Assembly (NCBI GenBank): GCA_027574665.1
Contig: CM050672.1
Coordinates: forward strand, 8,540,001-8,604,000
Origin: Rhynochetos jubatus
Taxonomy: Eukaryota > Chordata > Aves > Eurypygiformes > Rhynochetidae
Direction: 5' to 3'
DNA: 64,000 nt
The notes under the pieces are model-generated. The model ran no database searches and was not told where the DNA came from. It was given only the letters and a program-made list of their open reading frames with translations. The position numbers were made by a program, and so were the translations under genes. Each line of letters begins with the position of its first letter. Within the stretch, counting starts at the first letter, position 1. Below, piece by piece: positions 7,801 through 57,617 of the stretch.

Positions 7801-10800
7801 ACCTGCCGCGACAGGCACACGCCTGCCCTTCACGGAGCACCCCGGTACCCGGGCGTGACGGCACGCGCCGCGGGGACGCAGCTGCCTCGGTGGCAGGGAT
7901 CCGCGCCGGCGCTCGCGGGCGATGGAGGAGAGGACGCGGCGGGAAGGGGGAGCGCGGCCGTAATCAACCTCCGGACTTCGGCACGGCTCCGGGCGGGGAG
8001 GAGGTGCCGGTGGCCCGGCCGCGGCCATGCGTGCCGACGGCTCTGCCCCCGTGGCCCCGCGTGGCTCTCGAGGCTCTACCCGCCGCCCTCTCCCGCCCCA
8101 CGCTCCCCGTCTGGGCCGTTCCCGCCCGGATCCGGCTCCTGGCCCGGGGAAGGCTGTTATTTACCTTCAAACCTGTTTGGTGGCTTCTCTGGGGAGGGGA
8201 CGAGCACAGGGTGGGGATGTGGTGGGACGGGGCTCCCTGGGCTGGAACAGGGGCCGGGAGCGGGGCACGGGGCATGGGGGGGGGGCCTGCCTCCCTCCGC
8301 GGGGCCGGGACCCCGCCGTGGGCTGCTGCCGGACCCTCGCCCGAGGTCTGTGACAACACAGGGGGGCGGTGGGCTGCCCGCGGGGGCCGAGCTGGCCCCA
8401 GCCCAGCCCCGTTGCCCACCGAGGTGAGCCCCTGCCGGCTCCTCGGCCCGCTGCTGGGAAGTTTTCCGCACTGGGATGTAGAGGACGAAAAACGATCCGA
8501 GTTTGTTTTCCCATTTGAAATTAATTTTATTTCTGTCCCTGCGTGGGATCGAGTTGGAGAGTCGAGCCAGCAGCGCAGCTCGGGGCGTGTTTATTTGCTT
8601 GGCAGAGATGTTTTCCTGGCCCCCCCGGTGCGACCGAGGGCAGGCTGCACCCCCGGGCGAGCAGTGGGGGGGCTGCGTGGCCGGAGCCACGGCAAATATT
8701 ATTGTGCTCTTACCCTGCCTGGAGAGAGCACGGCCCCGCAGCGTGTCCCAGGGCACGGATCCTGTGCGGAGACAACAAGGGCTTGGGGAGCCGCCAGCCC
8801 CCCGGCCTCGCTCGCCGGCTGAAGGTTGAGGGGGCAGGGGCAGGGCAGGGTGGTACAGGCAGGTCCCAGGTCCCACCTGGCGCCACGGCGCTGCCCGAGC
8901 GGAGGCGGTGGGCCCAGGGGAAAGATGGAGACGCGTTGCTGCCGATGGGAGATGCCGGCAGGGCTGCCTGCACCATCCCACCGGCCAGGGGGCTGGCTGG
9001 CTGGGAGCCGGGGGGCTGGCTGGCTGGGAGCCGAGGGGCTGGATGCTGGAGCCGAGAGGGGCTGGATGCTGGAGCCGAGGGGCTGGATGCTGGAGCAGCA
9101 GTCCTTGTTGACTGCTCCGTGGGGCTCTTGGGGCTGGGATTCATGGTGCACCCCGTCGGCGTTATCCACGCTTCCGGCATCTGCAGGCAGCCGCCGCTTG
9201 GCCCCCTCCGTCTCGGGCAGCAGCGCGGTCCCCAGGCCAGGATGGGGCTGGCCAGCGCCCGGGAGCAGCGTGGTGGGACGGAGCCCCAGAGCGGGGGGAG
9301 AGCATTGACCCCCCCCGGGGCAGGGGGTCTTCTCGCTGCTCCCTGCACGGCCCTGGCCGCCGGGGGGCGGGAGCAGGGTCTCCATCCCACTGAGAGGACA
9401 CCCGAGGGCAGGTTGTCCTCCCCTTTTCCCCCCTCCGGGGGACCTTGCAGCCCCTTCCCACCCGCCTGCCAGCTCCCCCCTCCTCCCCATTTTTCTCCGG
9501 TGAGTCAGTGGCGGTGGGAGGGGGGCAGGGAGCCGCTGCCTGTTCCCTGCCTGCTGCCGCAGGACCCGCGTGCAGGGAGCAGGCAAGTCGGGGCAGTGCC
9601 GTGCAGGCAGAGATGGATGTTTGCAGCCCAAACCTGCCGCGTGCAGGAGGCACAGGCCTGGCGAGGAGGGGTCGGGAGCCAGGATCTGCTCCTCCGGGCC
9701 CCCCCCGGGGTGAAGAGCAGCTCCGGGAGGGAGCTGGGGCAGCACCGTATCCCGCTCGCAGCATCCAGGGCTGTATGGCGCCGGCGGCGTCCCCCTGGGG
9801 TCTCGACTCGGGTCTCTCCCTCGTGCAACCCGTCCCATTCCCGCCCCTCGCTGCCGGCACCGCGGCGCGGGCAGAGCCGAGGGCAGCGTTCCCGGGGTTC
9901 CCTGCCCCTTCTTGCCGTCTGCCTTGCTGCGGGGATGCTTCGCTCCCTCCGGACCATCCCTGGCTCCGGTAGTGGCAGATTGCGGTCAGGGGGACCATCC
10001 TTGGGGGAGTTCCCAGCCTGGGAGGCCTCTGGCTCCTGCTCCAGGACGATCCCGGTGCCACGTGCGGAGGAGGCACGTGTGTCGGATCCGAGCCCGGAGG
10101 GGCCGGGACGCTCCAGGGCGCGTCGCAAGGAATGCACGAGGGACGGGACGCCGGCTCTGACCGGGCGTGTTGCTACCGGCACCGGCTGCGGCGGCTTAGC
10201 CCACCACGATCTGCGGCAGGATCCGGCCTCTCTCCCTCCTGGCTTCCCCCCCCCCCGGCCTTTTCCCGCCCCCGTCGCAGCAGGTTTCGCCGTGTGTTGA
10301 CGGAGCTGGGGCGAGGCCGTCCGGGCGAGGCCGGGGTGGTGAAGGTCACGGGGAGCGGGAGGAGAAGCGGAGACGGCCCCATCCACGCCGTCGCGCTCCC
10401 CAGCCCTCGGCACGACGCTCCTCCGTGGCCGGCGCTCCGGCCGGGCGGTGGCCGCGGTCTCCTGCCCGGCTCATCCTTCGGGAGACGCCGTGCCCCGAGC
10501 TGCAGCGGTGCCGCGCTCCGCAGAGGGCCGCCTGTCCCCGGAAGAGAGGGACAGACCCCAGGGCCCTCACGGGCGGCGTGTGGGGAGGGGGAGCAGGGAT
10601 GGGCTGGGGGCTGGGAATGTCCTTACGGCTTCCACGGGTGCCGCCGTCGGCGGACCTGGGCGCGGGGCCGCACCTGGGTGTCCCTGCGCCCTGGACCAGC
10701 ACGAGGCGGGGGGCTGTCCCCCTTTACCCGCGGGGGCTCGCAGAGCTGCCGGGCCTGGGCCGGGGGTCCTGGGGCAGCCCCGTCCGTGCAGGCAGAGCCG

Positions 10801-12006: not shown

Positions 12007-19354
<7,348 letters not shown>

Positions 19355-27375: not shown

Positions 27376-30300
27376 GGAGAGGCGGTTGAGGAGGAATCTC
27401 ACGGATTGAAATCTGCTTTGTCACTTAGGCCTGTCCAGAACGTGGCGCTGGGAGAAGTTAGGTGGTAGGGGTGGTCCTGGGAGAAATGAGGTGTAACCCC
27501 ACAGCATTTTGGGGGTTTTTTAATAGGAAACTAAAGCACACGGGTTTTGTTGTTACTGCATCTAACGCGCCACGTTCCCACACAGCTGGGTACGGCGTTT
27601 TTATCCACCCACACCCTAGAAAACTCAAGGTTAATTGCGTAGCTGGTCGCGCTGCTGACGCAATAGCTGGAGCTCAGGCGGCGCGGTGAAAGAGCAGGTA
27701 TCGGCGTTCCCAGTAAGGGTCGCTTTCTCCGTTCAGAGCTTTGCGTGCTGCAAGCTGAAGGCAGATGAGGAAACTGCTGCTGCTCCTGCTGCTCTCTCAG
27801 CCCCTGAGCTGGCTCAGCTCTGAGGGCAGATGTCTTTTGACATGCAGGGAAGCAGACACTTCTGGGCCAGCCGTAGATTCTTCCTCTCAGCCCCCCGGCT
27901 CTTCTCACCCAAAGGCTTTTCCCACCGGAGTCACTCTCCTTGCGGAGAGTCTTTTTACGTCTCTGGGTCGCTTGTCTCGTTTGTGTGAGCGTCAGCCTGC
28001 GCGCGTGTCCGGGTCGGAGCTGCTCTGCCCGGGGCACGGCTGTTAGCTGGGGGAAGGGTAGTGAAGCCTGGAGTTAACGCTGATACGCCTCGACCGCTCG
28101 CTTGCAGACCGTACGGCCCGTCTCCCAGCACGTAGCCCTCAGCGGCGGGCGAGGACGTCAGGGAGATGAGCGGAGCTGTCTGGGAGAGGCTGCCCCGGTG
28201 GTGGTTGAACAGGTTGAATGTCCAGGGTGTTAAGGCTTGTACGTGCAGGGCTTCGTGTGGCTTTGGGGTTTTTTAATGGCAGGCTGTCGTGGGAATCTAG
28301 ATGGTATTCCTGAACGGAAACAAGACCTCTGGAATTGCTGAGCTATTGATCAGCGTCTGGGTGACTTATCTGATGCTGGTTTTGCAGATGCAGAGGGACC
28401 GGCGTAAGAAGCTGGGTTGGAGGGAAGATGCCGTACGGTACCAAGTGCTGTGTGGTACAAAATGCCCTACAGAATTCCATGTGCTTTGTTCCATGGCAGT
28501 TGGCTTTTTTCCATTTCCTTGTCTTGCCCTCCCGGAGCGCCTTTCCAACCCGGAGCGGCACACGAGGAAGCAGCTGTGAAGGGAAGTTTGTCACTGTCCT
28601 AGATGTGCAGTGACTGAGGCACAAAGGATAGAAGGAATTTGCCCAGAGGATCAGCAGTGAAGCCTGGAACAGAGCCTGCCATTCCCTGAGTGCACTGACT
28701 CCTAGATAATACCGACTCCATTAACGAAGTAATCCATATACAGCGATTCCGTGGGGCGGGAGAGATCGTTTCCTGCTGGGTTCTCCGGACAGGGGTGGTG
28801 ATGCCCAGCGTCAGGGCTCCGTGTCCTTCCTGTATCTCTTTACGAGGCTGTTACTGAGCGATGCGTAGCCATCAGGATGTCGTTTGGGTTAGGCTCCTGG
28901 AAGCAGGCGTTCCGTGGCCAGCTCCATGCTGAGGAAATGGACTTATTCCCAACAGGCAGCCCCTTGCCATGACCGCAGGACGGTGCTGCGGGTACGTGTG
29001 CTGTGCCTACGCCCAGCTTCCCTGCGCTGGGGGACCCGCGGCCGGCGCGGGTACCTCCTCCTGATACACAGGCCCTGTGAATGCACATCTCTCGCGTGAG
29101 TGAACGCTGCCAGGGAGCAGCTCGGCGCTTTGTGAAGGCTTTAGGCTTCCGGGCAGCCTTATTGCTGAAGGTTTCGTTCCTCGGCGTCGCAGCCGTGATC
29201 CGTAGAGACACTGCGAGGGGCGGGAGGGATTGTGTACTAAGCCTCGGTGGAAGGACACGCAGTGTGTGTGCTGCTAGAGGGTAGCCAAGGGGCTCTGCTT
29301 GCTTTCTGCTGTAGTAGAATCCAGCAGCGTCAGGTAAGGTTGGCAGAGACCGTTCTGCGCGAGCCCTGCGATGAAATGTCTCCCAATTAAAAATTCAGTA
29401 GCGTTCCTCAGCGTATCGCAGTCTGACAGCGGCAGCGAGGAAACAACGGGGCGGAAATTGAACTGCGGCGGGCCCTTTGCTGCTGCTCTCTCCGAGGGTG
29501 TTCCCTGCTTCTGTGCTGTAAGGGGCTGCTAGGCGGGAGGAGGAGATTACGGCCTGAAATGTGAAATAGTGGCAGCGGAAACCGTTCCCGCCTTGGTCTG
29601 CGCGAATGTCCAGCGCTGTGCTGGGTGCATCCTCTGCAGAACAGGTCTGGATGGGATAAAGTAGGTTATATCAGCAGTTGGCGGCACCGAGTGTGTGGGT
29701 TTTGGGGCGTTTTTGTCGGTTAAAAAGGACAGCGATGTGCTGGAAAGCGTCAGACGGCATGGCGGGGCTACGCCGTTGTGACCCCGCGAGCCCTGTGTTC
29801 AGGTGGCCAGCAAAACGCTGGCTCTCCCGGCTGCCCGCTTTGCTGACTCCATCTGGGATCTGCAGTCGCTAATAATAAGGATTCTTCGTTTGGAACTTAA
29901 GGAAAATCGCTGCGGATGCACGAGCGGAAAGGGAATCCAGCCCGCGTTCCTCCATGTGCGGGCGCGCGCGCCAGCCAGTGGAAACGTAATCGCTTTAATC
30001 GCTGAGGTCACCAGGCTGGTTTATAGACAGCAGATTTGGGGAGGAAACAGAAGATATTTCGGCGTAACAAGCATGTCGATCATACAGCTTTTCAAAAAAA
30101 AAAAAAAGGCTGCAAAGCCGATTGAATCCGGCCGGCTCGGCTGCTGCTTCCAGACTGGCCACTAATGGCTCATTACGCGTCGTTAGGAAGCTTTTCTGCA
30201 GATCCGGGGAAATGACATTTGCTATGACATATGGTGCCCAACCCTCTCCTCGGGGAGCGGAGTCCACCGCTCAGTCGATGGACTGCCGCGTTTTTATCGG

Positions 30301-32189
30301 CAGGATGGAGCGCAGCTGCGGCGTGCGCTTCCCAGCGATGGAACCTCTCGTGTCTCTGGCACACGCTGGCGCCAGCAGCCCGTTCCCCTCCGTTCGCAGC
30401 TCCTCCAGAAGGGCGTGACCGGCTGAGGTTATGCTAACACTTTCTGCCGTGTAGGTGTTTCCTCCTCCGAGGCGACTGAGCTGCCAGGGAATAACGTGAC
30501 TGACGTTCTCCCTTCCCTCCGAGGAGACGGAGAGCAGAGCGCGTGCTGCTACGCAGGGGAGGTGGGGAGGAGGGGACGGCGCTGTGTTGTTGAGTCGGAA
30601 GGACGTGCCGTGCGGGATTGTTTGCTCCACGCCACCTCCTGCCGCTCCATTCCACTGAACTCACGGGGGAGGAATAGGTGGGCTGAATTGTACTTGTCGG
30701 CACAACATTACAGTGCTCGGAAGGAGGGAGGCAGGCGGCGCTTCGCTTCAGACACACGCTGCGTATATTGGCGAAGGGTTCTGTTTCCACCTTCTTCCTC
30801 CTTAGGGTGCCCACAGTTTCTGCTCAGCTGATCCTTGGAAATCAACGGGCTTAGCGCCTGGGGGCTGCACGGCGTTGGCAGAGCCGGCGGGCTGCCTCCA
30901 TTCCCGGCCGAGTTCAGGGGGCATCAGTCCTTGCAGGGCGCTCTGGGACCCCTGTCGTCCCAGCCCCCTGCCCACTGGCTGCTCTCTAGTGTTTATCGGA
31001 GCCTCCCTTTCCTAGCTCAGCTTCCAACAACCCGGCGGGACCAGCAGCGGGGCAAACACGCCGGGAAACGTGGGTGGGGGTCAGGGTGCGTTCTGCGGCC
31101 AACGTGCCTTTCCTCAGCGCCGCCTTGGTGGTTTTCCTCTGGGTCTCGTCCCTTCTTGGCTGCAAAGCACCTCAGGAGTATCCTTTGGCAACTCCTGACG
31201 GGAATGAGGTACCTTTTCTAAAGCAGGGCTTAGGCTTGAGGCCACACAGGCAGAGCCTCCACGCTGTCCGGCACGGGTTGCAGCGGAAGCTGGTAGGGAA
31301 AGAGCAGCTTTGACCATGAGAGAAGCAGGACCTTAAGTAACCACCTTCTGCTGTTCTGGGAAACACCTTTTCCTAAAGTCTGGGCTTACGGCATCACCGG
31401 CTGCAGACGTTTCCTGTAGGACAATCGCTCGAGCTGGGCAGCTCGGAGTCCCGCTCCCACGAGCTGGGCTGCTGCCAGCCAACATCTGTTTCTTCCCACT
31501 AATGGCATTATTTCTATACCTTTGGAGCCTGCAGTTACGGAACATAACGATAACCCTTTTACCCCCTCCCACATTATGGTTCGGATACCCAGCTCTGAGC
31601 AAACGGTGCCGTGCGCTTTAATTCCCCCTTCTGCCTCTGTCCACGCACACCTCAGCTGGGAAAGAAATGGTTTAAGCCTGTTGCTGGGGAACAACAGGTA
31701 CTGTAAAAAAGGGGACATGGTCTGAGTTCCCGGGACAGCTCCTTAAAACCAGACACGTAACCCCCCCGCCCCCCCAGACCTGCCAAATCACCGGGCTGAA
31801 TCGCCTCGCTGGCGGGCTGCCGAGGGCCGCCCTCTTGGCTGTCTGCTCGCGGGTTAGGAGAGGGCATGTCCCTTGTCGCTTGCACGTGCCGTGCCGTCTG
31901 TCCCCAAGCTCCCCGTGCTGGGGTAGGGATTCCAACTGACGTTCCTTTCGGAGGAGATAAGGCGTGGCTGAGGAATCTTGCTAGGTACGCTACGGCGCTG
32001 TCTACGTGGCGCGGTCCCCTCCTGCAGCCAGCGTGGGCTCTGGGGAACCTTTCTGGTTTCCTACAGCCAGACACGGGGAACACTTCATGCTGTGCTCCCT
32101 GGGAAATGCAGAGAAGGACCCCCCCGCTGTGCCTGTCCCGCTCGAAGGTGAACTGATACTGAGTTCAGACGTTACAAGGACACGCGAGA
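27376..32189. other. Intergenic region with no recognised gene (S100PBP expected by synteny)
   Basis: Composition is less GC-rich than the flanks. The largest frames are near 100 codons and resemble nothing known. The acidic N-terminal and conserved C-terminal segments I associate with S100PBP were not seen on the plus strand. Simple features include an A run near 30092-30105. No tRNA or other structured RNA was recognised. Confidence 0.5.
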
Positions 32190-34752
32190 TGCCTTTAACT
32201 TTTATTGTACGTTATAAAATGTTTATTGCTCTGTCTGTATCAGAGGTGTTGACCTCTCCCTCTTGGTGATGGAGGAGTGTCTTCTGGCAGAGGATCCAGC
32301 GCAGAGACCTTTGGGGTTGGCCTGCCTTCTGAGACTGGCACGAGGGGAGCCCTTGCCCGTCCACCAACATATTCCTAGTGCCTGTCTCCCAGATCAACGA
32401 TTCTGGAAAGGCTGGTGACAGTGGAAGAGGAGAGGTGGCCGAACTCTGCTCCTGCCAGCCCGTCTCACTGCAGGGACCCTTAAACCAGGCTCATCCCAGC
32501 GCAGGTTTGTTGTAACCAGATTCAGACCCTACTCAGGCCACCCCGTCTTGGTATTTGATGGAACAAGTAGGATCTTGCCTTATCCCCTAGTGCATATGGA
32601 GTGGTCTTGTGGAGTAATTAAATAAATAGGGATACCCCATGGCACCCTACGAAGGGTGAATCTGTTCCAGGTGACGTACTCACATCTGCCAGCTTCCAGA
32701 GCACCAGCAACCCCAGGGATCCTGTCAGCTCCCAAACACCGAGCGCTTAACGAGAGCGGAGATCCCCAGCCCCTTTCCCATTCATCACCGTCCTGTTTGC
32801 TGGCTCCAGCAGGTACCCGGCACTACGGCGTCACAGAAGCAGTGCAGACGGGACACGCGAGGAGAGCCAGACCTTCCCACAGGAACCACTACAAGAAGCC
32901 ATTTAAGAACTTAAGCCCTCGGAAAAAGGTCCCTGAGGCAAGAGCCTTTCGCAGTAAATAGCTGTTGCCACGGGAGACCTTGCATAGCAACCGGTATCAG
33001 GAGGATGGGGGTTTTTTTTTGCTGACTGGCTACATTTTTATGGACCTTTTATCACACTGGTCGTGGGGTCAGGCCCAGCTGGGAATACCATGGAGAAAAC
33101 AGCTGGAATTACCCTGGAAGCTGAATAACGGCTCCTGGTGCCCCCTCATTACCGGTCTGTGCCGCAGTAATCGGCGTGTCCCGATTATCTGAGATGAAGA
33201 GCACCGGCGCGGTTGGAGAGACGGCAGCGGAGGAGCCGTGCTGCGGCCTAACCGGAGAAGAACCAGGGGAGCTCCCGCCGCGGGAATGGAGACCGGGGTG
33301 TGCCTTTTTTTCCTTTAAAACCCGCCCGCCAGCCGTGTTACGCAGCAGACACCGATGGATCAAAGCAAGCCGGGAGCGCGCAGCCGCCCAGCGCCGGCTG
33401 CCGGCCGTGCCGCCACGAGCTTTCCTCCTCCCGCGCTCGGAGAGGGGTGGCTGGCCGACGCCGGAGCTCCCGCTGATGCTGTCAGGGCGTAGGGAGACAA
33501 AGATACGGCAAAACCTTGTACGTTCCCAAAGACGGGAAGATCGTTCCAGAAGATGGAGCGTGAGGAGGGAGAGGGGTGCGTGAGGAGGTGCTCCAGCCCC
33601 GGTGACGCAGGGGTTCGGCGCGGGATCACCGGCAGCAGCGGTCTCACTGGTGCTTTTCCATCTCGATCGCAGTCTCGCTGACGCTTTTCCATAGCGATTG
33701 TTTGGGTTTCAGGGTTGGGGTGTTTGGTTTTTTTTTTGCAGGCTTTTCTTTCTGGCCAGATGTTTTGCAGAACACAGACAAGGAGGCGTGTGCCAGCAAG
33801 TGACAACCGCTAGGTCTCTTTCCAAATTGCTCCCGTCGTATTTCACCTCCCCAGTCATCAAGGCTCAGAGGCAGAAAGTGAGAGTGAGGAATGGAGTCCA
33901 TCCGTCGGATGGCAGGCTGTCACGCTTCAATGATGTTCACTGAGGGCTTGTTTTTTGGGAACTGGAAGAGGAGACAAAGGAAGAAAGGATGTGTAGGGAT
34001 CACTAGAGAGGAGAAAGCCCACCTCAGGGATGGGTGCAGTGTGCTGGCCAAGGTCTGGCTGTGTTAAGGTTCTTGCTCCCATCCCCTTGGGATAAGGAAG
34101 AGTTGAGGCTTTAGGGTTGCGCGGCGCTGTCGGCCGCTGAAAGAGCGTGAACCGGTGGGCTACCGCGGTGAAGTACATGCGAGGCGGCGGGGATGCGCCA
34201 GGGCGGGAGGTGCAAACAGAAACACCGGAAGGTTAAATTAATTGAGCTGAGTTTGTATCGGTCGTAGGCTTGAGCCTGCGGACGTCACGGCCGTGGCGCA
34301 CCCTTCGCGTCGCGGGCGTTACCAGCCGGGCGATGACCCGCTCCTCAGTCAACTGCGGGGGAACGTCCCCTTGACCACACGTCACCCAAGGGCTGCTGGG
34401 GGTCAGGGGGCAGGACCCAGGCAGCTCGGGGGCTGCAGCGCCGCTCGGAGCGTTTGTCTTCCAGAGACGCTCAGCCCTTTCAGAAATACGGATTGAAATG
34501 TGTTTTACTGGTGGAGGTGCAGGCTAACCCCGAGGCGGGAGCGAAGCGCGGGTGGCGGGGTGCTCGGAGCACTAAGGAAGCCATGGTGCTGGCGGGCGTG
34601 GGGGCGAGGGGTGATTCCTTTCTGCATCCCGACTGGAGGGGGGAGGCTGCGGTGAGGATGCTTAGCAGGGGCGGCTTTTCGGGTAATTTAGCCGAGGCCC
34701 GGCTGGGAGCTGAGTGTCTCCCCGTGCCCGCGGCGTGCCGGCAGCGTCTCAC
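32190..34752 (-). other. FNDC5: Probable FNDC5 terminal intron and 3'UTR exon
   Basis: The minus strand has two AATAAA signals close together near 32206-32234 (TTTATT on the plus strand), a likely transcript end. The last resolved FNDC5 coding exon ends at 34753 with a donor, so a terminal exon with only one or a few codons plus 3'UTR must lie here. Two acceptors fit phase 0: one at 33863 with a good pyrimidine tract (CTTTCTGCCTCTGAG) adding one Pro codon before TGA, and one at 33932 giving an immediate TGA. I cannot choose between them. Confidence 0.45.
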
Positions 34753-37700
34753 CTTGCTGCGGAGCAGCCCTCCGCTCTGGTGCTCGGGAGTGCTGTTCTC
34801 CGAGGCGTTCTTGGCTTTCTCCTTGCTGTTATTTGGCTCGTTATCTTTGATGATGTCATACTGTCTGCAAAACAGGGCGATCACCCCTAACGGGAAAAAG
34901 CGTTAACGATCACACAAACGAGCTGAGCCCCTGGAGCCTGCGGAGCTCAGGGATCCCTCCTGCCGGCCGGCTGTGTGCCTCCTGGTAGAGGTCGTGCTCC
35001 TAAGGACCGCTCTAACACAGCTAGTCAGCCCTCCGCTGGTCCCCTCGTGATGCCTGCGTCCAGGCAAGACGGGGTGGAAGGGCGGGAGATTAGTTATTTT
35101 CCAACTTCCCGGCCGTTAAAGGGAAGGCGTGTTTTAACCCGACGTTTGGGCAATGATCGAAGGGTTAAGTGGGATCTTTGCTTTGCAAACACGGGAGCTC
35201 CTGGGATTTCTGCTTATTGGAAATGTGCCCTCTGAGCTTTCCCCTCTGGGGTGAAGAGAAGGAGCTGGCAGCGGAGAGGCAGGTACCGTACCTGCCCGCC
35301 TGCCAGTCAGCCGGGGCCTCCCGGGCATCAGGACGTCTGCAAACAGGCAACAATGACGGCAGGAGAGGTGGGAACGTCCTCTCGCACTCGCAGGGGCATG
35401 GAGAGAGAAGCCGGGGCAGCCGTGACGCAAAAGGCGGCTGCAAATGTCTTTCTCGGAAGCTTTTGTGTGACCTTTTGACCAAATACAACTCCTCCGCCTG
35501 CGGGTTCCGCGCACGGAGTTTAAGCAGAACCAGGCAGATGCCCCCTCGCCCTTTCTGACGAGTATTCCAGCTCCCCTAGTAGCAAAACCCACGCAACGCC
35601 TTCACCAGGCCTCGCCAAGGGCTTTACGAAGCGGGGTGTCGGTATGAGCTGCCCCCGGGGGTTAGCGAACACCCCGGGCCAGGGTCCTTCTTGCATCCGT
35701 GCGCGAACGGCTGATGCTGGGAGAACAGGGCAGCACCTGCCCGGTCCCACCTGCTGGGATGCAACATCTGCCCGGCTCTGGGATTTCTGACGGCAAAACC
35801 CAGGCGCAAAGCAGCCAAGAGCTGGGAGAACAACGGGAAAATTAGACGGAGAAGGGCTGGCGTCTTGTTTCAGCCCTGAGCAGACCCGTGCCAGCTCCCG
35901 TCTGCTAAAACACCAGGCTGTGGCCAGGTTAAGAGCTGGAAAGGGGGTTCTGTGCACTGGGAGCTCGTGAAGAACCCACAGATGTAGAGGATTCCCCTCA
36001 CACTTTCCCTTTGAAATGCACCTGTCTGGAAGGGAAACGGTGGGATTAGCAAATTCCTTGTGGTGAGCTGCTCTGAGGCTCAGCGTACAGCCAGTGGGGG
36101 TTGTTCCTCCAGCTCCTGGTTATTGGGGTGGTTTAGGGCAGGGCATTTAAATCTGAATGTGCACAGCTGAAACCCTGGGGCAGGGGCTCGGGGAACTTTT
36201 TAGTTCAGTTCAGGTTTCTATTCTAAACTTCAGCAGTCACGGTCCTTTTGTGACAGATCTCAGACCAGTGACCCCTTTCCTTTCCACATCTCGCCCTGGA
36301 GATGTCTCAGCAGAATCTGGTGTAAAGGGGCCAACTCCTCTGTTGGAGTAAGCTGGCACGAGCCCTGTCCGGTCAGGATCGTTGCAGCGTGCAGCCGCAG
36401 AGATGACGGACGTAAAGGACGTAAGGCCACCTCGACACCGGAACCGCAGGTTCTCAGAGCCACCAGCCGTAAAACACCCACGAGATCTGTCCTAGGTGCG
36501 ATCTGGCGTAAGCCCTACTGAAACGTGGCCCCAAACTCACGCCGGAAGACTTGCTCTTTGGAAATCTAACGTATTTGTACGGATTACGGAAGGTCAGTCG
36601 GGGGTCTTGCGCCCTTTTGACCAGCGGCTTCCAGGCAGTGCTAGTCACCTTCCTCCTCCCGCTGTCCCAAGCCCCTGTAGGCCTTTCCTCCCTTTTGGTG
36701 AGTAGGATTCCGCTCACGCCCCTCCTGTTGAACACTACTCTGTTGCAGGATCTGGGTTGACCTGTGTTTTGATGTCCTGGGCCATTCGTTCTTTCAACGC
36801 TTCCATCGTTTTAATGGATTCTGACAGTGGGTTTTGGTGCGTACGTAACAGCGGGTGTTGAGAGCAAGTCTTTGAAATTCCTGTTTCCAGGTAATTACAG
36901 CGACTTGCATCACTGGAAGGGCTGGAGGCATCCTGTTGGATGGCTGGGGGTGTTATCATCAGTGCTTTCTGGAAAAATGGAGATTACGGGATTAGCCATG
37001 GCGAATTAGGCCATTGATTCACCGATCCATGATGCACTTCCTGCTGGACCAGAACCGACCTCGGCTTCACCTGCTTTCGGCACTGCCCCACTCGAGAGGC
37101 TGCAGAGGGAGCTGAGGTGCCCTGACAGCTGGGTGAGCAGGACTCTTCTTGGGGGGAAGGGTTTCCTTTCAGGTTCTCCGCCTCACACAGGCCAACCCGA
37201 GGGACCCTACGTGCTTGGACAGAAAGGTTGCACTGACCTGCCCACATAAACAACACCACAACAATGATGAGAATTTCCCCCGCTCGCAGCTGCTGGGTTT
37301 TCTTCGCCATCTCCTGCATTGTCACCTCATCTGCACAGGGGAGAGAGAGAGGGTGAAACCCAACTGCCTGGCTCGGGCTGTGCCAGGCACCAGCTCACGG
37401 TGCCCTTGACTCCAACCGTCAGCGTGGGAGCTCCAGGGAGAGGGTGCGAGCCCACCACTCACACCAACAGCACGACAGCAAGCGTCAGCTGCTCTGGAGC
37501 AGCTGCCCTGGCAACCTGCAGGAATCGGAGCGAGGGAGCGGGACCGTCGGGCAGTGACCACAGCAGAGCCGCCGTGGGGTAAGACTGCGTTACGTGGGGC
37601 GAGGGAGTGGGACCATCAAGCAGCGACCGCAGCGGAGCCGCCGTGGGGTAAGTCTGCGTTACGTGGGGCGAGGGAGTGGGACCATCGAGCAGCGACCACA

Positions 37701-40700
37701 GCGGAGCCGCCGTGGGGTAAGTCTGCGTTACGTGGGGTGAGGGAGTGGGACCATCGGGCAGCGACCGCAGCGGAGCCGCCGTGGGGTAAGTCTGCGTTAT
37801 GTGGGGCGAGGGAGGAGTGGGACCGTTGGGCAGCGACCGCAGCGGAGCTGCTGTGGGGTAAGTCTGCGTTACGTGGCCCTGGGGCGACACGCTCTGCTCT
37901 GTCTCCGGTCACACAGCCTGCCATGCTTCAGCAGCTCCTCTCCCAGCTCAGGAGCATGGAGGCTGGCAGGATATTTTCCAGCGGAGCCAGGGAATTTGGG
38001 AATGAGTAGAGCCTTTCTGAGGGCATAATGCATCTCCGTGGCTTCAAAGCACTAAGATTACAGTTCAGGCCTCCCGGGAGGAAAGCAGTGCCGCTCTTAG
38101 TGCTTTCAGATGAACAGCGATTCAGTATTTACAGGCACCAAATCATTTGAGCAGCAGGAGCCAAGAACCCACAACATCCTAGGAAGCACGGCCAAAAGCC
38201 CTGCAACAGGCTGGGCGTAACCCCTCATATCCCGGACCCCTGTACTCCCCAGCCCTTTTTGCAGGGAGATTCTTGCTGACAGAAAACCTTCAACCATCTG
38301 GTTTGGCTTAAGGGGAACAGGGCCAGGAGCTGCCAGTGAGGAGGTGCCAGCTTTCCTCCCTGGAGATGCTCAAACCCAGCTGAACAGGGCCCTGGACCAC
38401 CCGCCCTAGTTCGGTGATCTCATCAGGCCCCTCCCAACCTCAGCTTTCTCTGATTTGGCAGAAATATTTGAAACGTGAGAAAAGTGGCAGTCTCGGGGTG
38501 TATTTCCCCCTGATGTCCTGGAATCCAAGCACAGGAGGCTCAGCGAATTCCTGGAGAGCACCGTGGTGTTGTGCCCAGTGCCACCCAGGGGTCTATTTCC
38601 ACACGAATTGACAGGAATTTCCCCTGGCATCCTCCACTTGCCAGGCTGCTGGACACACAGCTCCTGGTCTGGGAACCTTCTCCTCCTCGCCTCACCCGTT
38701 AAATCTCCTCTGAAACGGGAGAAAGGACCAGCCAGCCTTCGGCAGCATCTCCCTATTGCATTGCGCACCCGGCAACCTTGTCTGGCTACGCTCAGGGCAT
38801 CCCGCGTGTCCGTGTGGGGCTGTGGGAGGGCACTCGGCCCGGCTATTCTCATTGCCCAGGGTGCTGCTTTCCTCTCCGCAGAGCCCTGCGCCGCCTGGGC
38901 GTCCCAGGGGCCACGTAGGAACTCACCCACACTTGCCTTTATTTTTAGAGGCTAGTTTCTCAGCTTCCCTGGGGGTCTTGAAGAGGACTGGCTCACTGGC
39001 AGGGCTCTGGCCTTGGATGCTGATGGACTGGACATGCACAATGTACTCAGTGTCCTCCTCTAGGTCCCAGAGGGCACAGGAGCGGGTGGTGGTGTTCACC
39101 TCCTGGATGAAGCGCAGCATCCGCACGTCCTTCTTCTGGAAGCCGAGAGAGGAGAGCACAGAGTGGTGGAGGGGTCCTCCCGTGTGCACTGCGGTCACCC
39201 AAGACCACTGCTTCCTGCCCTGTCCGCCACGGACGTGGGGACCGTCGGACCCGTTCCTCTCTGCAGCTCCCAATGGGTGAAGCGCCGCTGCAAAGAGGAC
39301 GGGAAGCCAAGTCCCCCCGCCCAGGCCACGAGGGACAGGACGAGAAGGAATGGGCTTAACCTGCAGCGAGAGAATTTGGAAACCGGGGCGGGGGGGGGCC
39401 TGGGATGAAAATGGACGTGACCGAAACGGGGTAACTTGGCACCGTACCTGTTGGGAAACTGCAAATCCAATGACAACTTCGTCTTCCAGAACATCCCAAG
39501 TGACAACGGCTGAGTTGGCTTTCAGGTGTTTGACTGTGACATTTACTGGAGCCGACGGGCTGTCTGCAAGGAGGGAGAGCAGAGCCTTTACAGGGGCGCA
39601 GCCGCGGCCGCAGCAGGGGACGGAGCAAGGGCGTGGGACGGGACCTTGCTGTGGGTCCTTCCCGCCTGTGGTTCTGGCCGTGGGGATGGGAGATGGCAGG
39701 TGATCCACGTCTGAGCCACAGAGGGGTTCTGGGGGAGCTCTGCTGAGAGCATCGGTCGCGCTGGGCGCGTGGGAATGCCTGACCCTTGGGAAGCTGTTCC
39801 TGCACGGCAGGCCGCCGCGTCTCGTCCCTCCCGGCCACGCGCCACGCTTTCTCCGTTGTTTTCCCGCGGTGGCAACAGGGAGGGAATGCAAAATGGGCCT
39901 TGGGAGCAGGAAAACGGAATGCTTCGATGGGCACTCCGGGGGGTTGAATTCAGGAGCGGTACAAGGGGACGTTTCTTTTGCTTTTCCCTGTTAGCCGGAC
40001 AGAAGGAAACCTCCCGTTTTGCACCGATGGGCTGTATCTCGAGGGGTCAGAGCGACAGTCGACCCCCAGCAACAGCCACCCCCCAGGGCCGGACATGCTG
40101 CAGCAGCGCCAGGGGGACCGTGGCAACGCGCAAAGGGCCGGCCGAGGCTCCGTGCTGATTCTCAACCCCAGAGCGCAGCGGTTTCCTGCTGCAGGGTGAT
40201 CTCCGGAGCTGCCAGCCTGGCCGTGGGGAGCCAGAGCCTCTTCCCAAGGGAACTGCCCGGTGCAAAGCCCTTCTCGGCGTGGCAGGGGGAAGGTTGTACC
40301 TCACAGCTTGGCACAGGCCTTCCAGGGCTCTGGACTCCTGTCCCCTTGCCCGTCGCCAAATTGAATTCACAATCTCCGGCTCGAACCCAAAGGCAGCGAA
40401 TGCCCACGAGGCTGCCGGGGCTCCAGCTACCCCCTGGGTCAGCGGTGGGGGGGGAAGGGGTCATTCTTTCTGCCCCCTCCCTCACAGAGAGATGCTTCAT
40501 TGCTCCGTCACCCTCGCACAAGGCTGCTCTTGTGGGGCTGAGCTCAGCGGCGGAAGGCCGCGCGTGTGCGCGTCTCCGGTAACACTGGTTGGATTTATGG
40601 CCAGCCCCCGCCGCCTGAACATGGCCGAAAATATTCTGGCTGTAGTGTCAGTGTCTCCTACCGACTGACTTCACTCCTGCTGAATGCTCCCCCGGGAACA

Positions 40701-43700
40701 GAGGGAATAACGGGAGCGCAACGCTCCCCAGCTGAAGGTCAGAGCTGTTCTATGCTTGGCAGAGCCATGACCTTATTCCTGTCCCTCCTCCCCGGCCTTC
40801 CCGGCTCCTCTTTCTAGGATGTGGGAGACCCGCACCCACCAGTGAGACCCTTAGGAATGGGGTGTCTGGACCAGCCGTTGGGATCCGGGCTGACGCTGGT
40901 GAGTCCTTCCGCACGCAAACCGGCCGCTGCAAGGTGCCTGGCTGAGTTCACGCGGATTTGGGACTTCACAAGGAGGAGCAGCAAACAACCGCGCTCTCCA
41001 GGGTTTCACAGGGGAGGCGTCCTTCCTCTCCGGTAGATGATCAAGACCCGGAGCTTTCCCATCGCTCAGGGGCTGCCCTTCCTGAAAGGAGGCCGTGGCC
41101 TCCCGCCAGCTCCCGGCGAACAGAAACCTCATCCTCACCCTCCAGTGCAGCAGCAGGGCCAAGGGCGAGCTGCGCAGCGGGGTCGGATCGCCCCCAGTCC
41201 CCTCCTGCGACAGGAGGAAGGGCCGTGGGTCTGCAGCTCCTCACCGCCAGCTCCTCATCTTCCCCGGCGGCTGAACCCAGCAAGAGCAGGGTCTAATTTT
41301 AGGAAGGGGCAGTCAGGAGAGGGGAATGTGGCCAGGGAAGGTCTGTGAGTCATGCCTGATGAATTTGCTAGAACGTACGGAGAGGACATGACGGAGGGAC
41401 GGGAGACAAAACAGTCTCGGGCTGCAGCCAGGCACCTCGCCCTCCGCAAAGCACGGCTAAATCCCGGCGTGGCTGTCCTTCCTGGATATTTTTAGGAGCG
41501 AATTTTTTTTAGGAGCTACTGCTGATTTACCCAGCGTAGGTTGGGGAGCCCTTTGGAAAGAGATGAACTGACCCCGGAACAGGGAAAGAGCTTCAGGCTG
41601 GGAAATGGGAACGTACGGCACTCGGAGCCCGAGTCCCCTTGGAAATCTGTGACCTTGAGGGAGGCAGAGCATAGAAAGTGTCCAAGTCTCCTGGTGACAC
41701 GGAATGCAGGGGAGTTGGGAAGCCCCAGCAGTGCTGGAGAAGAGCAAACCATCCCTCCGGGAATTGGGGAGAGAGCGGAAAGGATGCACTTGGCGAAGCT
41801 GCAACCCGGAGCTCGAAGCCTGCGGAGCAGGACGGAGACATCAGCTGCTCTGGACGGTCCAGAAACCCCTTCCCAGCGATCCCAGGCAGAGACGGGGTGG
41901 TGGAAGTCAGCAGCTGGCACAGGGAAATCGGGGGCGGCAGATCGGAGCGTGCCTTCCCTTTCACGGCCCAGGATTAGGAGTGGCTACGCACGAGCCGGCG
42001 GTGTCGGCCCAGCGTGACGGCGCTGTGAAAAGGGAATTGAGTGCAGCCTCCGACGGGAGCGCAAAGCCAGGAAAATGAGTTTCCTGCTCCCAGAGCTGAA
42101 TGAATAAATGGGAACCGCAGTTTGACGCCGTGAGGACGCTTTTCTCCTCGCTCCCAGGAGATGCACGATGAGATCATGACTGTTAAATCTACTCGCTCTT
42201 CCAAGATATTCCACGTCACTTTTGGCTCCCTGGGCCTGGTGCGGCTCTTTGTAGTGCCAGCTCGGATGAGGTCAGGTGGAGAAGGCGGAATTTCTATTTC
42301 CCAGCTGGCTGTAGGGGGTCAGCGACTCTAGCGGGGCCTTGAGGTGCCAAAGCCAAATGTTTGGCTCCTCCTGGAGTCACACGCAGCTCCTGGGAACTCG
42401 GCTTTGTGCCTGTGGCGGGCAGGGAAGCTGCGGGAGCAGGCACAGGAATGTGGGGTGGCCCCAGGGGCTCTTCCCTGTGGGTGAGACAGCGAGGAACAGG
42501 CTGTGCACAGAGCCCCCCTCGTGGGTGCTGGCCCCAGGGATGCCGGGGACAGCACAGCCCCAGTCTGGGCCGTGAGGGACCCGTGTGGGACCAAGGCCCT
42601 GGTCTGGCAGTTGAGGCTCACCCCAGCTTGGCTCCACCGGAATTAGGGCTGTGTGTGAGGATGAAAAGCTGCCCTCGCCTTCACGTCAGCAGCACTTGCA
42701 GCCCCCTCCTTACGGGGGGGCCCTGATGAAGGACGAGGAAATCATGATGATTTCTGACTGAATTGGCTGCTTCCAAACCGATCGTGCTTGAAGCACGCCG
42801 TGTTCCTGCCCACCGGGACCCTTCCTCAGGCGAGTGACAGCCCTAACCTCCTCCCGGCCCTTCCTCGCCCAGACACACCTGGGTGCTTTTGGCGTGGGCA
42901 GGTCCGAACCGCCCCCGCGCAGCAAGGAGGCACGAGCAGCCAAGATCGCCCTCGGTCCCCTCTGAGTGCCGAGAACTCCTTCTGGCCTCTCGTTAAACGC
43001 TCTGCTGATTATTAATGGGCTTTTATTTAGGAGAGACAAAAACCCACCCCCACGCTCCACAGCCTTGGGCTCGTCCCTCCCTGGCTGCTGGCACAAGGAG
43101 GGGGAAACCACCCACTCCCCCATCACCGCCGCAGCTGTGGCGCGGATGGGATGGGGGAGGGGAAGCTTTGTCCCCATCCCACTGCTGCTATCGCCTGCGA
43201 CCGGGGGGCTGCGGATGGGGGGAGGAGAAATGGGCTGCGGATGGGGGGAGTCTGAGGCCGCAGGGAGGTACCTGGGCCACCAAGACATCCCTGGAGAAGC
43301 CCAGCGCTCTGGGCTCCTCTGCCATCGGCCCGCTCCTTGCTGGCGTGTCTCTCTCGAGCCCGGTCCCGATTTGCACCTTCTGCCACGAGCCGGGGGCGAG
43401 AGCCGGCTCGCTGCCTTCAGCCGTGCAAGGTGCCAGGGGAGCCCTTGCTTGGAGCGAAAGGGAGAATCCATGGAAATATCACGTCTTGGAGAGGTCACCT
43501 CTGCCAGCTGAGTCCTGCGGTCAGGCGATGGGCTTGGAGTTAGCGCCTAGTCCTGGATTTATCTCCACAGCCAAGGGGCTCAGCCTCCCCCTAGAGCTGC
43601 TCCTCCTGAATTCAACTGGCCTGGAAAGTCCAGCCGCTTGGAAGTGCCCGGAGTGAAGTACAGCAAGGATCTAGTCCTGCGTGGGCTGCACTCACGGCAC

Positions 43701-46700
43701 TTCCCCGTTCAGTGGCAGCTCCTTTCCTGTTGGGAAAGGCTCGGCTGCTGCAGAGCCCCAGGACAGCGGCCCAGCGAGCCGAGAGCCCGGTCAGCGCTAT
43801 CCACCGGCAAGCTGCCTGCCCTTTCCCGCGGGAAACGGGGAACGTCAGCCTTACGTCCCAGTAGCTCTTTGTTCCTGCACCGCCACCTTCCCTGTGAATG
43901 CGGGAGATGGAAGGACACGACCTGCGAGGGGAAGGAAGGGGGAGCCTGTAAGGTCCCACGCGCTGGTCTCCGTGAAGAACTGCCGCCCGCTCCCTGAGGA
44001 GCTGCCTACGGAAAGCTGCCTACAAACAGACCCTACAAAGAGACCCGCTCTCGCTGCCTTTCCGAGCCTTTCTTTGCTCTCCCAGCACGGCTCCCTTCAG
44101 TGGATATAATTGCTTGTCAGCTTTATGGGGCATGTAGGAAGGGCTGGCACGCCGTTCGGCTTCCCGGGGCGTTTTAATGAAGGGAGCCCGCGGGGGAGTG
44201 GGAGGGAGCAGAGCCCACCGCTGCCGTCCTGCCCCCGGCCCCATGGGAAGCGGGGCTGTTTCCTAAGCTCTGCGATTTCAAAGAGCAGAAAGACCAACTG
44301 GTGGCTCTTCAGTCTGGGAAAGAGGGAATTATTTCCTGCTGACCGCCCACTCCCCTGTACAAACGGGTTATTAACAGGCCAGCCCCCTCGCACCCATCCC
44401 CCCCGGCCCTATGGCTGAATCCTCAGGGAGTGGGTGCCCAGGCGTGCGGGTGGAAATGCTGCCAAGGACGATGGAGCCTTTTCAGGGAGCTTGAAGATGC
44501 TCAGCCATCAGGAATTCCTTAGGGCAGAAGGAAGCGGGATTTCTACTTCGGAGAATTTCCCATTCCTCAGCCCTCTGAGTCCTGAAGCCGGGCAGGATTC
44601 GCTCGGATCCCGCCAGTGCCGTGACTGGGGTTTTAACGCTGCCAGCCCAGAGCCGAGTCATTGCCATGGCATGTTTTATCCAGGACCCGGATGCCCAGGG
44701 AGGACTGGGTACCACGGGCTTTCCTAGCCTTTCTCAGCCCACACCTCAGTCGTATTAGATAAATGAGAGAGAAATCCGTCGGAGGCAGAGGATGAGCAAG
44801 CCCTGGAGTCCCCAGCCAGCCACTGGACGCCGGTACCCAGAGCGATCCCGGGATTGCTGGCTGATCCGACTGAGTTTTTACTGCACACATGAAGATTTGC
44901 ACGCTTCAGTGCTCAACACGTTCCTGCTTTTAACTGACTTACACTGGGGTCAGGCCTTAATTTGGCCTCCGGGCACTGTATAAACCAGGAGGGGTTTAGT
45001 TAACAGTAAATGCCGTCAGGATGAGGCCACACTCAGCACGTGGTACCGCTCCACGAAGGCCGCTTTTGGACCCTGCCGTGCTGTGCATGGTCAGCGTGTG
45101 CGAGCGTGTCCCTCTCTGGGAGAGATCTCTGCTTTCCACATGCGTGTTCCCAGCAGCAGGTGGCATTTGGAAGAGGATGGCGCAACCTCGGCTGCTTTGC
45201 GCAGCGACGTCCCTGCTGAGAGGCTGACACCGGGGTTAGAAACCTCCGTATTTCAATTAAATCTCTCCTACGCTGGATGCAGAAACCAATAAAGTGCTTA
45301 CACCATCCCAGGAATCTCCACAGCCTCCAGGGGATGGGAAGGGGCCGGAGCGGGCCGGTTTGCCATCTCCAAACAGCTGTCGGACCGAGCCTATGGTTCG
45401 CCTCTGGCTGTGCCCCTGCCCGACGGCGGGTGAGCTCGGTTCCCCGGGCTCGGTTCGGCGATGAGTGTGTCCGGTGAGATTTGGGTCAGGAAACAGCATC
45501 CCCAGACTGGAGCTGTTCTCCGGGCAGGCACCTGGCAGGGATGCTGTTCGCCGCAGCAAGGTGAGGGGCCGCGGCCTATTCTGGGGTTTTTCATCACCGT
45601 CACGCGGCATCACCCCGCTGCTCTGGCAGCCCTGAGAGCCCGGCGCGGCTCACCTCCCGCCTCGGTGGCCTCGTGGCCACATGGTTGGGTAGGACTGGGG
45701 ACACGGAGCTGATGGGGATGCTGCTGCTACCTCCGTGTGACCTTGGGAAAATCACGCTATTCCTCTTTTCCCCTCCCCGAAAAACAGGGACAGTTCCAGG
45801 CCGCTGCCTCGCCGGGGTGAGGGCAGAGCGCACCACAACCCTCGGCGAGGGAGAGCTCGGAGCCAGGCGGCAGCGGGGGCGCGTGGCACAGCACCAAGGT
45901 CACGCAGCTTCCTCAGAGCCCGGAACCGAGCCTCCTGCCTCCCCCGGGCTCGCCGTAGCCACGCGACAGGGCAGCTACCCGTGTGCGCGGAGCTGCCCGG
46001 CTCCTAGGGCGGCACGGACGGCTCGCGCTGCCTGGAAGAGCGGAGCAGAGGCTGCTTTGGGCAGGGACACAGCTCCATGTTTACTCTCAGTGCCTGGCTG
46101 AGGTGATTCAAGGATAAGGAAGAGCAGGGGAAGTGGCCTAGTTTACAGAAAACCGGGAGGGCTGCTACAATTGCGGACGCCTCCGTTGCGCTGCGGTGTT
46201 TTCCCCGTCGCTCCCTCCTTTGGGGAATGTTATGTTAATCTCCCCGGGGTCTCTCAGCTGGGAAAACGGCAACTTCAGAGGGCCCCTGTCCGGCCAAGGA
46301 TGCGCGTGTCGGAGCCGAAGGCATCCGGGGGGTCGCTGCAGCCCCGGCGCGGGCAGGACAGGGCCGAATGTAACTCCAGCAACTCTCCGGGGCTGGCTCG
46401 GGCGCAGGAATTTCCCCTCCCCGGAGCTCTGCAACCCTAACAGTCACCCCCAGCCTCCTGGAATGCAAGATATTCTGGCAATCAGCGTTTTGCAGATCAG
46501 AGCAGCTGTTCCACCAGCATCTTGCAGCCAGAGAGAGAGAGAGAGACAGGAGACAGCCCTCCGGCTGGCTGTGCCCAGGGACGGTGTCTGGTTGGGCTGG
46601 GGAGCACCCACCAGCACCTGCCGAGACGTGGCACACACAGGGTGTTCGGGTGACGGTTCGTCGGCTGATACGGGGGAGAAGAGTGGAGCCGGGCACATCC

Positions 46701-47426
46701 CGGTCGCTCCACGGTTAGAGCTAGCTCACGGGGACCTTTGCCTTCCCGAAGGATCCCCCACTTCAGAGGACACCCGTGGCCCCGAGGGGCCTGGTGTGAC
46801 GTGGCTGGGGCGCGCTGTGCCCCACGGAGAGGTGGCTCCCGGCAGTGCCTGGCCGGGACCCGGACAGCCTGGGGCAAGCGGGATCGGGGAGGGGGTTGCC
46901 ACGGCCAACGCACCGTGGCCTTGGCACAGCAGATCCGCTTCGGCCTCCGCTGTTCCAGTCCAGCCCCGTGACACCAGTGGGCCCCGCTGCTCGGGGGCAG
47001 GAGGGCCTGCGCCTCCCCCGTGCCCACCACGGGCTCTCTGTTCGCTGCCCCCGAGCCCCTGTTTTCACGCCACGTCCACGAGCCGCCTTCCCGGGGACCC
47101 ACGCTGGGACACCGCGGGGGCGAGAGCTCGGCGCCTCCCGGCACCAGGGCTGACCTGGGGCTGCACGTCCCGCGCCGCTGGTGCCCTCCGAACCCAGTTC
47201 CAGCCAAAGTCCCGGCCGGCCATGCCCCCCGAACTCCGTCCCCGGGGCGCAGCCCTGCCCGGCCGCGCTCCACGCAGCTCCCGCGCTCCCCCCGCGGGCA
47301 CCGGGGACCCCCCGGGCCGCCCCTCGCCGGGGCCCCGCGGCCCTTACCTGCCTCCGCCGGGCGCAGACCGGCGTAGCTGAAGCAGAGCAGGAGCGCGGCG
47401 CCGGTGCAGCCCAGGAAGGGCTCCAT
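34753..47426 (-). CDS. FNDC5: FNDC5, irisin precursor; five coding exons resolved, final codons not
   Basis: Single-pass membrane protein with a fibronectin type III ectodomain, shed as irisin. Exons in transcript order: 47348-47426, 39448-39563, 38937-39135, 37238-37330, 34753-34886, giving 207 residues before the last junction. A 26-residue signal peptide starts MEPFLGCTGAALLLCF and ends AEA. The FNIII domain begins DSPSAPVNVTV at 27, with N-glycosylation sequons at N34 and N79 and the conserved EVNTTTRSCALWDLEEDTEY. The membrane segment ILIIVVVLFMWAGVIALF spans 151-168. The cytoplasmic tail ends at GGLLRSK with donor AAG|GTGAGA; human adds one more residue from a final exon. The start is a real ATG in good context. 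The donor after exon 3 is GC rather than GT (see findings). Intron 1 is 7.8 kb. Confidence 0.95.
34887..37237 (-). other. FNDC5: FNDC5 intron 4, nothing recognised
   Basis: This 2.35-kb intron lies between the transmembrane and cytoplasmic-tail exons. No coding exon, repeat family or RNA gene was recognised in it. Confidence 0.6.
37529..37872. repeat. Five-copy 69-bp tandem repeat in FNDC5 intron 3
   Basis: Units of 69 bp (for example the GGGGCGAGGGAGTGGGACC start at 37596 and 37665) contain CAGCGACCGCAGCGGAGCC, then GTGGGGTAAGTCTGCGTTA. The first copy is diverged and the last carries a 3-bp insertion. Because 69 is a multiple of three, both strands stay open across the array, which explains frames of about 145-150 codons on either strand. 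Confidence 0.95.
38318..38455 (+). mobile_element. Degenerate CR1 LINE 3' end in FNDC5 intron 3
   Basis: On the plus strand the segment with TGGAGATGCTCAAACCCAGC, GGGCCCTGGACCACC and CCTCCCAACCTCAGCTTTCT resembles the CR1 3' terminus. It is short and diverged, with opposite orientation to the two CR1 copies near YARS1. Confidence 0.7.
39564..47347 (-). other. FNDC5: FNDC5 intron 1, no coding content recognised
   Basis: A long first intron that includes a short GA microsatellite (46530-46545) and becomes CpG-dense towards exon 1. Open frames inside it are short or compositional. In an intron of this size first-intron enhancers are likely, but none can be pinpointed by eye. Confidence 0.6.
46530..46545 (+). 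repeat. GA dinucleotide microsatellite
   Basis: Eight AG units without interruption in FNDC5 intron 1. Confidence 0.85.
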
Positions 47427-48020
47427 CCCCCGCGGCCGCCGCGCCGCGCCGGGCCGAGCCGCTCCGGACCGGGCCGGGCCGGGCCCCGCCGGCGGCGCGT
47501 CCTGCGGGCGCGGCGGCGCCGTTCAGCACCGCGGAGAGCGCCGGGGCCCGGTACCGCCGGGGCCGCCCGGTACCGCCGGGGCCGCTGGGCTCGGCACGGC
47601 TCGGCTGGGCTCAGCGCCGCCCGGTAGCGCCCGGCACGGCTCGGTTCGGTACGGCTGGGCTCGACCGGGAGGCGGGGGCGGGCGCGGCCCCGCCGAGCCC
47701 CGGCTCCGCCCGCTGCAGCGCCGGGCAGCCCGGCTCCGGTCCCTCCCCCGGCCCCGGGGGCGGCGGGACGGGGGCGGCTCGAGCCCCCCTCCCCCCAGAC
47801 CCAGCCCGGCTCCGTTGCCTGCCTCAGTTTCCCGGTCCCGCCCCTCCCGCCCCCGCCGGGGTCCCGGCACACCCCCGGCCCAGCCCTCCCGGGGGCTGCT
47901 CCCCGCCGGGGCCCCCCGGGGGACGGAGGTGGGCTCACCCCGAGGCGCCCCCCGCCCCGTGCCCGGCGAGGCTTTACCGCGGGGGGTCAGGCAGCCCCTG
48001 CGCGGCGCCGCGCGCTCAGC
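46900..48020 (-). promoter_or_regulatory. FNDC5: FNDC5 CpG island and promoter region
   Basis: CpG-dense sequence covers exon 1 and about 600 bp upstream, with internally repetitive GC-rich blocks such as GGGCCGGGCCGGGCC near 47470 and two GGTACCGCCGGGGCCG copies near 47550-47585. No TATA box is evident, as expected of a CpG-island promoter. Confidence 0.6.

Positions 48021-56143: not shown

Positions 56144-57617
<1,474 letters not shown>

Follow-up and report, generated by a model that had tools for sequence, protein, structure and literature searches.

In human and in mouse alike, 0.8% of protein-coding junctions belong to introns with GC-AG termini, and alternative 5' splice events affect 31.6% of the GC-AG introns of human protein-coding genes as against 10.1% of their GT-AG introns (PMC7242645). 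In GC donors the remaining positions lie closer to the consensus (PMC2490688). For primates and rodents, Churbanov and colleagues inferred 298 changes from GT to GC versus 40 from GC to GT, and the excerpted text of the same paper discusses the neutral fixation of GC in strong contexts followed by its recruitment (PMC2490688).

The gene FNDC5 encodes the precursor of irisin. How irisin is set free is unsettled, PMC8636013 stating that the protease responsible is unknown, and a donor pair of the kind described below could bypass shedding. In rat, a soluble FNDC5 (sFNDC5) of RNA origin has been reported, produced by an event between ATGAGGT repeats (PMC8636013, PMC8936140), and the general idea of an RNA-made soluble FNDC5 is already in print, for a different event (PMC8636013). 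In human muscle, Albrecht and colleagues found a diversity of FNDC5 transcripts beyond the annotation, mostly C-terminal, with the irisin-coding exons present in all observed transcripts but one; one truncated fragment was sequenced, transcripts for a truncated irisin were judged unlikely, and mouse muscle yielded a single transcript (PMC7033458, as excerpted). Several variants at the 5' and 3' ends are known for bovine FNDC5, none of which is described at the donor corresponding to ours in the excerpted text (PMC3909329). Among the titles and abstract openings retrieved from an open-licence library no description of the donor pair was found, and that library likewise yielded no paper treating FNDC5 together with GC-AG introns.

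Here we describe FNDC5 in a 64-kb stretch of DNA from the bird Rhynochetos jubatus (the window; all coordinates refer to it and are collected in Table 1). The joint translation of exons 2 and 3, with an FNIII domain nearly identical to irisin, matches the solved irisin chain 4lsd_A (E 3e-58, query residues 1–98), which identifies the gene and bears out the name given to it in the first-pass annotation; a Pfam fn3 match (E 8.3e-13) was found as well. Exons 1–5, the span of our gene model, join through the GC site into an open frame of 207 residues, and signal peptide, membrane segment and cytoplasmic tail share this one frame. The signal peptide was found with a hydropathy filter and the membrane segment was assigned by eye. 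Exon 1 was the sole candidate to pass the filters and joins exon 2 in frame. It appears to begin with a standard ATG, unlike human FNDC5, whose start codon is AUA (PMC4352853, PMC7033458, both as excerpted).

Neighbouring genes were sought with 16 short peptide probes. These matched for HPCA (2 of 3), YARS1 (2 of 2) and FNDC5 itself (2 of 2), and place FNDC5 between HPCA, which starts at 56144 on the plus strand, and the YARS1 exons at about 21.7–26.0 kb on the minus strand. In human, FNDC5 likewise lies between HPCA and YARS1. The RNF19B probe gave a poor match, with 4 of 11 letters wrong, which was dismissed, and the eight short probes for AK2, TMEM54, S100PBP, TRIM62, PHC2, ZNF362, AZIN2 and SYNC gave no match, a result that cannot show absence. 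Downstream of the YARS1 exons lies a minisatellite of about 0.9 kb (18245–19183) with units of 15 and 92 bp.

Table 1. Features of the FNDC5 locus, in window coordinates; a slash marks the exon–intron boundary
Feature	Position	Strand	Remarks
Exon 1, from ATG	47348..47426	-	signal-peptide-like MEPFLGCTGAALLLCFSYAGLRPAEA; donor CAG/GTAAGG
Exon 2, first part of FNIII/irisin domain	39448..39563	-	donor CAG/GTACGG
Exon 3, rest of irisin domain	38937..39135	-	end ...SKNK + G
AATAAA within Lys-Asn-Lys codons, exon 3 end	38938..38943	-	adjacent to GC donor
GC donor of intron 3, AAG/GCAAGT	38935..38936	-	score 5.84; U1 energy -7.8 kcal/mol
Weak in-frame GT donor AGT/GTGGGT	38925..38930	-	6 nt downstream of GC donor; score 4.17
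Rival GT donor TGG/GTGAGT	38921..38926	-	10 nt downstream of GC donor; score 8.60; U1 -10.4 kcal/mol
Intron 3, GC-AG, 1606 nt	37331..38936	-	acceptor CTCTCTCTCTCCCCTGTGCAG
Exon 4, 93 nt, most of membrane segment	37238..37330	-	
Exon 5, membrane segment end and cytoplasmic tail	34753..34886	-	donor AAG/GTGAGA

On the minus strand, the bases that follow exon 3 read GCAAGTGTGGGTGAGT, and AGGCAAGT occurs in one copy per strand in the whole 64 kb. The first-pass annotation had drawn attention to this exon end as a GC donor in the strong AG/GCAAGT consensus of GC-AG introns with a competing GTGAGT 10 bases further on, and on both counts it was right: the donor dinucleotide is GC, the rest of its context is near-perfect, as is described for GC donors (PMC2490688, as excerpted), and the GT site lies where it had been placed. 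The next exon likewise starts at the position proposed, and splicing from 38937 to 37330 stays in frame and gives a product ...ASKNKDEVTMQEM, with the junction ...REAEKLASKNK/DEVTMQE. Recombinant irisin as printed in PMC4352853 reads ...REAEKMASKNKDEVTMKE, and KNK/DEVTM from the GC junction is identical to its junction residues; this identity speaks for the GC junction being the one that was inherited. The intron also shows the features of the U2-type GC-AG class, namely GC at +1/+2, a strong remaining consensus and an AG acceptor preceded by a good pyrimidine tract. Human and mouse irisin are identical in sequence. To judge by its sequence, FNDC5 intron 3 has its best-supported main junction as a GC-AG intron. 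Elsewhere in the window just one GC site scores as high, at 9583 on the plus strand (CAG/GCAAGT).

Contrary to what the first-pass annotation had maintained, the GC site is not the only one that preserves the frame. A scan of 39000–38801 for GT and GC sites scoring above 1 returned five, three of them in frame: the GC site at 38936 (5.84) and the weaker GT sites at 38930 (4.17) and 38996 (CCA/GTGAGC, 5.38), the last of which lies 60 bases within exon 3. The match to irisin at the junction is lost with the +6, the +10 and the 38996 donors alike. A reading in which the weak site at 38930 is the main donor has in its favour that it keeps the frame and offers a GT dinucleotide, and its product (...KNKGKYEVTMQEM, KNKGKYEVTM) would retain the membrane segment and thus be a full membrane protein; it is hardly credible, given that it scores below the lowest control donor (4.34) and inserts residues precisely where the GC product matches irisin.

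Donors were scored with a rounded table of vertebrate frequencies and by the energy of their duplex with U1, and compared with a control set of 16 donors, of which 10 come from YARS1, 2 from HPCA and 4 from the remaining exons of FNDC5; YARS1 exon 8 (GAGCAG/GTGAGG), the end of YARS1 exon 9 and the last part of HPCA stand outside this set. All 16 controls are GT, with scores from 4.34 to 11.52. The GC donor exceeds 5 of the 16 and the rival GT at 38926 exceeds 9; between the two, the GT site is ahead on both measures (8.60 vs 5.84; -10.4 vs -7.8 kcal/mol), and this greater strength makes an appreciable use of the GT site plausible. Local RNA accessibility is unremarkable at both (among 8-mers, the GC site stands at quantile 0.41 and the GT site at 0.29) and so does not favour either donor. 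By chance, a GT site with a score of 8.60 or more would turn up in the 10 nt downstream with a probability of about 0.0039 (some 0.4%), a figure to be read in the light of the pair having been picked by eye from the whole window. A GT rival of at least that strength accompanies none of the 16 control donors within 50 nt and one of them within 100. By these figures the GC donor of FNDC5 intron 3 has a strong GT rival close by; the tandem is uncommon, and competition between its two sites is plausible.

Use of the GT donor adds 10 bases, and the splice from 38927 to 37330 yields, in agreement with the first-pass annotation, a translation ending ...KNKGKCG-stop, an irisin-like ectodomain. The protein has 135 residues including the signal peptide, and its stop codon occupies bases 2–4 of exon 4, 89 nt ahead of the point where exon 5 is joined. 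According to the 50–55 nt rule, a message whose stop codon lies further upstream of a junction than this is degraded by nonsense-mediated decay. On the strength of that distance decay of the GT message is to be expected, all the more so as exon 5 itself closes with a good donor; the call follows a positional rule of thumb, to which exceptions occur. This predicted decay weakens the soluble-hormone reading, and it tells against the proposal of the first-pass annotation that a soluble hormone is made here by splicing rather than by shedding.

Neither would the tandem donor be specifically required for such a form. The frame that reads through intron 3 also ends in KGKCG-stop, because the TGA resides inside GTGAGT, and retention of the intron would for this reason encode the same protein as GT use; early polyadenylation past the TGA would give KNKGKCG as well. 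The AATAAA at 38943–38938 is the only copy on the minus strand in 34000–41000 and, as part of the Lys-Asn-Lys codons, may be meaningless. The two ends of exon 4 share one phase. Skipping it would therefore leave the frame intact while deleting the greater part of the membrane segment, and a soluble form could arise in this way without necessarily triggering decay.

We consider it likely that intron 3 is a U2-type GC-AG intron whose main message is spliced from 38937 to 37330 and yields the ordinary membrane-bound FNDC5, with GTGAGT as a tandem donor, cryptic or minor, that is coupled to decay. The near-perfect AG/GCAAGT context would offset the C at +2 through pairing with U1. Where GTGAGT is used instead, the frame would shift, the stop in exon 4 would be reached and the message would be removed by nonsense-mediated decay; the tandem donor would then probably add noise or slightly lower FNDC5 output rather than make a hormone. 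The frames and stop positions in this scheme are read directly from the sequence; the choice of donor, the level of its use and the decay of the message we infer. If the GC junction alone is used, the locus would be one more GC-AG intron, of a kind that gene finders may miss.

The remaining readings differ from this one in how much they make of the GT site or in whether they accept the GC at all. The closest to it is regulated unproductive splicing, in which the GT donor is used appreciably and in a tissue-dependent manner and the ensuing decay sets FNDC5 output. A stronger rival donor combined with a stop that precedes the junction by 89 nt speaks for it, as does the over-representation of GC-AG introns in alternative 5' splice events (PMC7242645); yet the donor pair may be an accident of the lineage, and we regard regulation of this kind as unlikely. 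We think it improbable that the GC donor acts as a switch in this lineage, whereby the GC site fails or is bypassed, be it through GT splicing, retention or early polyadenylation, to yield a stable message for one secreted irisin-like protein ending in KNKGKCG, made without a protease. The lead of the GT site by two measures, the preservation of the signal peptide and of the entire FNIII domain that aligns to 4lsd, the identical protein expected from intron retention and the soluble rat FNDC5 of RNA origin, albeit from a different event (PMC8636013), all lend it something; the position of the stop predicts decay of its message, and truncated-irisin transcripts go unreported in human muscle, with one transcript in mouse muscle (PMC7033458, as excerpted). 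A spliced soluble irisin from this locus is possible but unsupported.

A single assembly stands behind the GC call, and an ordinary GT donor might have been misread in sequencing, altered in assembly or be represented here by a rare allele. None of the 16 other scored donors carries such a change, which argues against GC being a general error pattern in the window, and AAG/GCAAGT resembles true GC donors (PMC2490688), although a GT donor would be well placed in this context too; we consider an error or rare allele very improbable, and the GC-AG reading is retained.

Intron 3 further harbours a 69-bp minisatellite in five copies (37530–37876), the sense strand of which carries four copies of ACTTACC, a motif like the 5' end of U1; these are the only four in the window on either strand. 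The idea that the array masks a donor was set aside. When 67 intron tiles were tested for pairing with the donors the four best all fell inside the array, which counts for a mask, but the repeat unit paired with the donor region no better than shuffled versions of its own letters, 112 of 300 shuffles reaching or falling below the observed pairing energy, and the shuffles were taken as decisive. Pattern searches for relatives gave 5 matches in a collection of viral contigs, none confirmed as a relative, and 152 in a collection of genome contigs, again none confirmed, as expected there for a vertebrate gene.

How, then, does the locus compare with what has been described? Unproductive splicing is the arrangement in which an alternative donor shifts the frame and brings in a stop that precedes a junction by more than 55 nt, with nonsense-mediated decay as the result. 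The FNDC5 GT donor would resemble it on both points, the shifted frame and the distance of the stop. The likeness to rat sFNDC5 is partial: in both that protein and the putative GT isoform the irisin domain is present, the membrane segment is absent and the origin lies at the RNA level, whereas the rat form is said to originate between ATGAGGT repeats and carries a new 31-residue tail, and the form considered here would arise from a +10 donor and end in GKCG (PMC8636013, PMC8936140, as excerpted). On the minus strand of 30000–48000 ATGAGGT is found only at 37330, the start of exon 4, and at 41132; it is absent from 30000–37329, and an exon after exon 5 lies outside our gene model. The closest relatives of FNDC5 intron 3 are the vertebrate U2-type GC-AG introns, with which it shares the arrangement AAG/GCAAGT ... 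CAG in a strong context (PMC7242645, PMC2490688, both as excerpted). The competing GT donor beside the GC site fits the excess of alternative 5' splice events among such introns (PMC7242645), and at the level of the DNA the intron presents no structural difference from them.
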